Source: Halosimplex halophilum (GTDB lineage Archaea > Halobacteriota > Halobacteria > Halobacteriales > Haloarculaceae). Taken from it: 64,000 nt of DNA. This document shows, piece after piece, positions 55,414 through 57,417 of the stretch; positions within the stretch are counted from its first letter, which is position 1; the number at the start of each line of letters is the position of its first letter. The translations under genes and the position numbers were made by a program. The stretch lies in the NCBI RefSeq assembly GCF_004698125.1, contig NZ_ML214298.1:248001-312000 (forward strand), given 5' to 3'. The notes under the pieces were generated by a model. That model was not told the origin of the DNA, did not search any database, and worked only from the letters and a program-made list of their open reading frames with translations.

Positions 55414-56664
55414 CTACTCGTCGGCGTTCGCGTCGACCGTGCACGTGACGTGGCGGTCGCGGTTCGCCGCGACGCACGCGTACACTCGCTCGCCGACGGT
55501 CCGCACGACCGGGAGCGACATCACGACGGCGACGGGGTAGAAGACCGCGAAGTGGCGGAACAGGGCTCCGAACGCGTCGTATCCCTCGTGGCTCCGGCCG
55601 CCCCGGAACGCGTACATCGCCGTCTCGAACGCCACGCCGGGTCGGTCGCGGTACTCCGCAGGCGCGGTCGACTGGGAGTAGAACTCGATCGTGTCGGTCA
55701 CGTCCAGCGACTCGAACACGGACAGCGTCCGGGCGCAGAACTCGCAGTGCTCGTCGTACACGACCGCCAGTTCGGCGTCGTTCTCGACCCGCGACAGCAG
55801 GCGTGACCAGTCGGCAAACAGGAGCAGGAACACGATCTGGTCGAAGAAGAACGGCCCCATCACGACCGCGACGACGACGTGCATCCCGAGGAGACCGACG
55901 ACGAACGGCGTGATATCCCGCCTGGCCAGGATCCAGAGCAGGAACCCGGTCTCGAGGATCAGCGTGCCGATCGCGGCCGACTGGAGCAACCAGGGATACT
56001 GCAGCAGGAGGCGGCCGGGCCGGGGATCGACGCCGAAGTACGTCTGGGCCCAGAGGATGTACTGGCCGAGGCTCCGAGCGGTCGCCCACTCCCAGGCCGG
56101 ACCCTGGACGATCTTGGTCACGCCCGCTCCGAAGTAGAGGATCCCGACGGTGAGCAGGCTCCACTTCAGTATCGAACCGGCGGGTTCAGGGTCGGCGTCG
56201 CGCGACGACTGGAGGCTGGCGTTCAACTCCGCCGGACCGGCGGTGCCAGTGGCCCGGATCCCGTCAACCGAGATGCGGTCCTCCGACCGGTACAGCGCGA
56301 AAAACACCATCACGTACACGAGCGTGAAAAGCGCCTGCGACGCGCCGGACGGGTCGAGTGTGAACCGAGCCGCTCCCAGATGCGCGACGAGGACGGCAGT
56401 CGCCGGCGTCAGGTAGCGATGTGAGACGCCGAACGCGAAACAGACCAGTCCGACGAGAGCGAGATACTTCTCCACGACGAGGTACGGCTGGACCCACTCG
56501 GGAACGACCAGCAGGTAGTAGTCGGTCGCGTAGACCTCCCACCGGGAGATAGACGCCCAGTCGTAGGAGCAGAGTTTCCAGACCCCGAGCGCCGCGACCA
56601 GGACTCTCGCGACTGCGACGTTCACGACCGACCCGTTCGAGCCGTCGTAGTAGTTCACGAACAT
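55414..56664 (-). CDS. HTTM membrane domain fused to a DCC thiol-disulfide domain
   Basis: A 416-residue fusion. Residues 1-275 hold about seven transmembrane helices of the HTTM type, related to vitamin-K-dependent gamma-carboxylases. Residues 285-416 are a DCC/DUF393 thiol-disulfide domain with VVYDEHCEFCART, whose CxxC is the redox pair. It is the second gene of an operon: its ATG at 56664 is two bases after the stop of the upstream membrane gene. The operon has a DtxR-like operator. A redox or carboxylase-like reaction at the membrane is likely, but the substrate is unknown. Confidence 0.8.
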   Translation of the reverse strand: MFVNYYDGSNGSVVNVAVARVLVAALGVWKLCSYDWASISRWEVYATDYYLLVVPEWVQPYLVVEKYLALVGLVCFAFGVSHRYLTPATAVLVAHLGAARFTLDPSGASQALFTLVYVMVFFALYRSEDRISVDGIRATGTAGPAELNASLQSSRDADPEPAGSILKWSLLTVGILYFGAGVTKIVQGPAWEWATARSLGQYILWAQTYFGVDPRPGRLLLQYPWLLQSAAIGTLILETGFLLWILARRDITPFVVGLLGMHVVVAVVMGPFFFDQIVFLLLFADWSRLLSRVENDAELAVVYDEHCEFCARTLSVFESLDVTDTIEFYSQSTAPAEYRDRPGVAFETAMYAFRGGRSHEGYDAFGALFRHFAVFYPVAVVMSLPVVRTVGERVYACVAANRDRHVTCTVDANADE

Positions 56665-56665
56665 G

Positions 56666-57304
56666 CTACCGGGCGGTCCCGTTGCGGATGAATTCGCCCT
56701 CGCGCCGCAGACTCGCGACGAGTGTGCGGTCGCGTTCGTCGATGCTACGGCCGGACGCCTCGTACCGGAGTTCGACGGCATAGACCCGCAACCCCACGAA
56801 GTCGTCGTATCTCGCCAGTGTTTCGCCGTCCCAGCGATCCCCCAGCGCGTGCGGCGGAAAGTCTACGTGCGAACGCACGCCGCGGCCGTCGCGGACGCGC
56901 TGACGATAGCGTCTGGCGCGGTCCAGCAGGTACGCGGCAGTGGACTTCGCTTCGGCGTCGCTGTACTCGGTGGCGATGCCGCCACCGAACCTCGTGAGCG
57001 TCCCCGCAGGGCGAGCGGCGTTCCCGTCGTACCGCAGCTCGTTCCCGTTCGCGTCGACCACGTATATCTCGTAATACGCCGTCGGATTCGAACTCGATTC
57101 CGTGTACTTGTGGAGATGAGTGAACGGGAGAAGCGGTGGGAACGGGAGGAGGTTGACGGTCAGGAGGCCGACGAAGAACAACGCCAGGAACGACTTCCGG
57201 ACCTTCGGATCGTCCGAGCGCCGGACGGCGACCAGCACCGCCAATACTGCAGAGACGAACACCGCCGCGACAGAGAGCGGAAAGTACTGCGAGAGGTCGA
57301 CCAT
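56666..57304 (-). CDS. Two-helix membrane protein, partner of the HTTM-DCC protein
   Basis: A 212-residue protein with two N-terminal transmembrane helices (about 10-27 and 37-56) and a polar C-terminal domain rich in Arg and Tyr (IYVVDANGNELRYDGNAAR, HALGDRWDGETL). I do not recognise it. It starts the operon with the HTTM-DCC gene (one base between them). The ATG at 57304 is 22-32 bases from the TATA/operator element, so the mRNA should be leaderless. Confidence 0.72.
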   Translation of the reverse strand: MVDLSQYFPLSVAAVFVSAVLAVLVAVRRSDDPKVRKSFLALFFVGLLTVNLLPFPPLLPFTHLHKYTESSSNPTAYYEIYVVDANGNELRYDGNAARPAGTLTRFGGGIATEYSDAEAKSTAAYLLDRARRYRQRVRDGRGVRSHVDFPPHALGDRWDGETLARYDDFVGLRVYAVELRYEASGRSIDERDRTLVASLRREGEFIRNGTAR

Positions 57305-57314
57305 CACGCGGATA

Positions 57315-57332
57315 TTTTAGGCTCCCCTAAAA
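57315..57332 (-). promoter_or_regulatory. DtxR/SirR-like palindromic operator over the TATA box
   Basis: TTTTAGG (57315-57321), CTCC, CCTAAAA (57326-57332) is a perfect seven-base inverted repeat with a four-base spacer. The DtxR/IdeR box has the same geometry (TTAGG-N4-CCTAA). On the coding strand the element also supplies the TTATTTTAGG promoter box, about 25 bases before the ATG at 57304. A metal-loaded repressor bound here would block TBP. Confidence 0.65.
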
Positions 57333-57417
57333 TAACTTCTGGAAGCACCCCGGGAGGGTATCGTCCCGGGCGTCCTGCAGTCTCTGGGATCGGGCGACTG
57401 ACTGGCCGGACGCCGTG

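Follow-up and report, generated by a model that had tools for sequence, protein, structure and literature searches.

A scattered membrane gene pair carries a DtxR-type iron box in the haloarchaeon Halosimplex halophilum

Main finding

We analyzed a 64,000-nucleotide stretch of the Halosimplex halophilum genome (hereafter the window) that includes a two-gene operon preceded by a palindrome matching the iron-regulon box of this organism. Our best explanation, to which we give roughly even weight, is that, in this species only, the iron-starvation regulon has come to include a horizontally scattered two-gene module for membrane redox chemistry. At the sequence level, this reading draws on the location of the box between the TATA element and the start codon, at the standard position for the regulon, and on the conservation of the gene pair as a unit. 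An earlier note on this DNA had proposed a metal-regulated membrane redox operon not described in Halobacteria: its observation is confirmed and its interpretation partly supported, while the rarity of the genes and a general link to metals are not upheld. The relevant features are as follows.

55414–56664, minus strand: 416-aa protein with an HTTM/GGCX-like membrane domain (residues ~9–295) and a DCC1-like domain (residues 301–404)
56666–57304, minus strand: S212, 212 aa, with two transmembrane helices (residues 8–29 and 33–52) and a conserved soluble domain
57315–57332, no strand assigned: DtxR-type iron box TTTTAGG-CTCC-CCTAAAA, putative operator of the operon, overlapping the TATA-like element
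57326–57336, minus strand: TATA-like stretch, ~25–32 nt 5′ of the ATG

The box and the promoter of the operon

The box (TTTTAGGCTCCCCTAAAA) is, as previously described, a perfect TTTTAGG-N4-CCTAAAA repeat with zero mismatches at 57315–57332. It has no second copy in the 64-kb window, where 0.09 sites are expected by chance at up to three mismatches and nothing comparable was found elsewhere. The TATA-like stretch TTATTTTA, read on the minus strand, overlaps the upstream arm of the box, and the S212 ATG at 57304 lies 10 nt 3′ of it. The TATA-to-ATG spacing seen here is typical for haloarchaeal leaderless promoters, and we infer such a promoter for the operon, which agrees with the earlier proposal of a palindrome overlapping the TATA box of a leaderless transcript. 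Within the operon, a single base separates the S212 stop codon from the ATG of the 416-aa gene. Directly upstream and on the same strand, the window encodes a beta-carbonic anhydrase (PF00484, 57418–58011), which is ~90% identical in two same-genus genomes that both lack the operon at that place.

Genome-wide occurrence of the box

Scanning the 4.47-Mb genome with the reversed motif as a control yielded 39 box sites at up to three mismatches, compared to 13 for the control. At up to one mismatch, 13 sites were found where 0.03–0.13 are expected from base composition, and only 0.0004–0.0025 copies of a perfect 14/14 match are expected per genome. Most of these 13 sites precede siderophore, FecCD, ferric-binding-protein, Dps, NifU, SufC, ZIP, or DtxR-type genes. 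The neighbouring genes encode transport functions (PF01497 [Peripla_BP_2] ferric-type binding proteins, a FecCD permease, an SBP, and a ZIP transporter), siderophore synthesis (IucB/IucD; Acetyltransf_8, Lys_Orn_oxgnase), a Dps-type ferritin (Ferritin/Dps), NifU, a short DtxR-type regulator (Fe_dep_repress), and an ABC ATPase that we read as SufC, alongside genes with no obvious iron role (e.g., a sugar transferase, a DUF5059 protein, and a CopD-like protein). The gap between box and start codon is 2–12 nt at eight other regulon genes, a range that includes the 10 nt of the S212 operon.

Since its copies lie before iron genes genome-wide and at the same promoter position, the palindrome at 57315–57332 is, by sequence, the DtxR-type iron-regulon box of this organism, which bears out its earlier description as DtxR-like. 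That reading had been made dependent on the motif being present at metal-transport promoters, and matches were indeed found before FecCD, PF01497, and ZIP genes; as most sites precede iron genes, the feared absence was not seen. In a study of Haloferax (PMC11349517), “ferR regulon” signals are described ahead of all fhu operons, with reference to Leyn & Rodionov 2015.

Several other loci carrying the box are worth recording. The genome encodes three DtxR-type genes, located at C1:671127, C1:397323, and C1:1329706; one of the three scores under the PF02742 cut-off yet has two boxes upstream. A 123-aa short DtxR-type regulator preceded by two boxes (L025, G000 C1:1329404-1329894) is a candidate autoregulated iron repressor. 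An unexpected member of the regulon is a bacterial sugar-transferase gene (PF02397) located between two boxes (L023, G000 C3:480466-482102), which adjoins a Dps gene carrying its own box. Two boxes, 36 bp apart, lie directly before a Tat-lipoprotein with DUF5059, with a leaderless spacing of 4 nt (L021, G000 C2:954370-954423). Finally, a CopD-like membrane protein gene that scores under the Pfam cut-off (C2:407060-407932, within L020, G000 C2:405000-411000) has a box 10 nt before it and is a possible new regulon member.

Distribution of the gene pair and of its iron box

The pairing of S212 with an HTTM(-DCC) gene was detected in 29 of 391 sampled Halobacteria, across 15 of 86 genera, and in 7 of 146 genomes of the same family. 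None of the seven other genomes of the genus carries it, which suggests that the pair has spread horizontally. Of 38 homologous regions, 37 have a detectable S212 beside the HTTM gene; only L105 lacks it, and this region has no DCC either. The nearest copy (L081) shares 73% DNA identity and has no DCC domain, and within its family no relative closer than genome G216 was found, the G216 copy having lost the DCC domain. Overall, L107 and L109, together with L100, L101, L105, and L081, represent HTTM paralogues without the CxxC motif or without the whole DCC domain. Closer alignment pointed to seven named loci, in Natronococcus, Natronolimnohabitans, Halostagnicola, and Halogranum, and a search of genome contigs with a single protein gave no match. 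In one genome (G017), a contig bears near-identical copies at either end (L078, 7752–9752, and L079, 6570–8572), one of which has S212 and HTTM-DCC joined in a single 667-aa ORF; these duplicates may represent an assembly overlap with an indel.

Near the operon start, every one of the 38 homologous regions, like the seven named loci fetched separately, differs from the box by at least five mismatches at its best site, though the box is present elsewhere in the genome of all 20 operon-carrying relatives tested. Three same-genus genomes have no box in their orthologous carbonic-anhydrase regions. Given that 0 of 38 homologous regions carry the box at the operon and 20 of 20 genomes do so elsewhere, iron control seems to have been added recently and in this species alone, being specific to the H. 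halophilum genome as far as sampled. The core function of the family can thus not be tied to iron, and the proposed metal-linked system does not extend to the family as a general or conserved trait (box at the operon in 0/38 homologous regions and 0/7 additional loci).

The view that such proteins are rare in Halobacteria fails because PF05090 proteins are present in 188 of 341 Halobacteria genomes, in addition to the 29 of 391 with an HTTM-DCC and partner pair. Canonical Halobacteria HTTM proteins display an invariant W..FAP pattern in their C-terminal part, and one of them weakly matches DUF5819.

Domains and predicted fold of the 416-aa protein

The DCC domain is readily identified by Pfam (PF04134, residues 301–404, E 4e-14, 54.3 bits against a cut-off of 27.8) and includes the CxxC motif C307-E-F-C310. 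For the membrane part, the Pfam HTTM model (PF05090) remains below cut-off in both the 416-aa protein and 26 relatives. When compared with 15 bona fide haloarchaeal PF05090 proteins using hhalign, the 416-aa family is matched over 257 columns (probability 96.8, E 2.4e-10), and these haloarchaeal proteins match human GGCX in the PDB (E 0.003); the HTTM-DCC profile searched against PDB sequences gave no match. In VIA-align comparisons of the AF2 model, the best 15 rows are all GGCX (Z 9.7–11.3, next unrelated chain 8.8), with model residues 9–322 spanning GGCX 57–339, although a Z of ~11 for a helical bundle can reflect a common arrangement, and the membrane part of the model is weak (pLDDT 50–60), which makes for modest confidence. 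Based on the hhalign match, the link from PF05090 to GGCX, and the predicted fold, we assign the membrane domain to the HTTM/vitamin K carboxylase superfamily. The fusion of HTTM to a CxxC-bearing DCC domain noted earlier therefore stands, by Pfam for DCC and by profile–profile comparison and predicted fold for HTTM, except that PF05090 itself misses the latter. A literature search found no paper on HTTM-DCC fusions. On the alternating-helix and positive-loop reading only, DCC would lie on the cytosolic side.

Conserved residues and candidate chemistry

K184 of the 416-aa protein is invariant in 27 family sequences and aligns with an invariant HTTM lysine, which in turn aligns with K218 of GGCX (a transitive alignment, in which K218 is the second lysine of the VKK motif after adding a 31-residue numbering offset). 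In GGCX, K218 serves as the catalytic base toward vitamin K hydroquinone, the substrate Glu is held by N159/H160 and Y395, and the Glu-pocket residues are N158/N159/H160 (PMC12589487). Where GGCX has this NNH stretch, the HTTM-DCC family has PSG-like residues, subject to how that loop is aligned. The invariance of the K218-equivalent lysine and the absence of the Glu-binding residues point to quinone chemistry on a different substrate, so that the 416-aa protein is probably a quinone-linked redox enzyme and not a Glu carboxylase; gamma-carboxylation is unlikely because those Glu-binding residues are absent. The conserved lysine and the CxxC motif make membrane redox chemistry plausible, and the thiol step may be accessory or even dispensable, since some relatives are without the DCC domain or the CxxC.

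The partner protein S212

S212 had been described as an unknown two-helix protein, which holds for its two N-terminal transmembrane helices and leaves out a conserved soluble domain of ~150 residues with the predicted order b-b-a-a-b-b. Its topology is probably N-out/C-out. Searches of Pfam, NCBIfam, and PDB folds gave no match for S212, and even the best fold hit (Z 4.5) was not convincing. We also considered S212 as a detached C-terminal domain of canonical HTTM proteins, with which it is collinear over ~145 columns; because 10 of 120 block-shuffled controls score equally high, this kinship is not claimed.

Proposed mechanism and alternative explanations

Under the explanation we favor, a DtxR-type repressor would occupy the box in iron-replete cells and block TBP/TFB, and the operon would be expressed at low iron. 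The HTTM domain would then bind the menaquinol of the cell (MK-8), with K184 acting as the base that deprotonates it, while the CxxC of DCC would connect cytosolic thiols and the quinone site by electron transfer and S212 would cap the extracytoplasmic face and dock the substrate. In this species, the operon would hence provide an iron-free redox (quinone/thiol) activity during iron limitation. Because the Glu-pocket residues are missing, this best reading does not involve Glu carboxylation. A more specific and rather unlikely version is that of a GGCX-fold enzyme with a built-in VKOR-like thiol recycling domain, which would perform menaquinone-linked, non-carboxylation chemistry and, in one archaeon, have been recruited to the iron regulon to spare iron.

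The box could be a true iron operator and the membrane protein still not a quinone redox enzyme, if the latter were instead a peptide- or protein-maturation factor of the SdpA/SdpB kind, which we consider unlikely. The arrangement of a small transmembrane protein followed by an HTTM protein fits this possibility and presumably resembles B. subtilis SdpAB, as do the soluble domain and probable N-out/C-out topology of S212. However, none of the 26 S212 members (S212 and 25 relatives) matched the Pfam models for SdpA or DUF5819, no conserved small-peptide gene was seen beside the pair among the listed neighbours, and we know of no DCC fusion in the SdpB design. An operon that is not iron-regulated at all, with a box that is coincidental or decaying beside a horizontally acquired pair, would account for the lack of a box in all 38 homologous regions and in the carbonic-anhydrase regions of three same-genus genomes. 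Such a passenger palindrome is nonetheless quite improbable, given a 14/14 match expected 0.0004–0.0025 times per genome and present as a single copy in the window, at the usual distance of the regulon from the start codon and overlapping the TATA element.

The same membrane fold could also belong to a true vitamin K-type carboxylase, in which HTTM would carboxylate its substrate and DCC would regenerate the quinone from its epoxide, in the manner of VKOR with GGCX. Haloarchaea contain menaquinone, and the predicted GGCX fold, the K218-equivalent lysine, and the beta-carbonic anhydrase gene (PF00484) just upstream on the same strand would be consistent with this activity. Yet the positions of GGCX N158/N159/H160 (PMC12589487) align to PSG-type residues, the 416-aa protein has no propeptide-binding domain, and a carbonic anhydrase was not recognised by eye beside the pair in relatives, which makes a carboxylase very improbable.

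Significance and comparison with known systems

The iron-regulated redox module that we favor opens a testable route into a so far unstudied part of the vitamin K carboxylase superfamily, and does so in hosts whose quinone chemistry, iron response, and genetics can all be addressed. The gain of an iron box by a horizontally scattered pair would further be an example of regulon rewiring open to verification by species comparison.

With GGCX and the HTTM domain (PF05090), the 416-aa protein shares its predicted membrane fold, a collinear profile match, and a lysine at the K218 position. Unlike these, it is under Pfam detection, lacks the Glu-binding N159/H160 and the propeptide domain, and ends in DCC, with the S212 partner encoded separately. 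Canonical haloarchaeal HTTM proteins (~500–555 aa) have a homologous membrane domain but a C-terminal domain of their own, with which S212 is collinear at a level that is not significant. The DCC part resembles DCC1-like thiol-disulfide oxidoreductases (PF04134) in its full-length domain match with CxxC, and differs from them in being fused to an HTTM-like membrane domain and in the loss of DCC or CxxC in some relatives. Finally, this genome resembles the haloarchaeal DtxR-family iron regulon (ferR/Idr-type boxes; Leyn & Rodionov 2015, cited in PMC11349517) in carrying such a palindrome before siderophore, FecCD/Peripla_BP_2, and Dps genes, and differs in that its box also stands at a membrane gene pair that is boxless in every relative examined.
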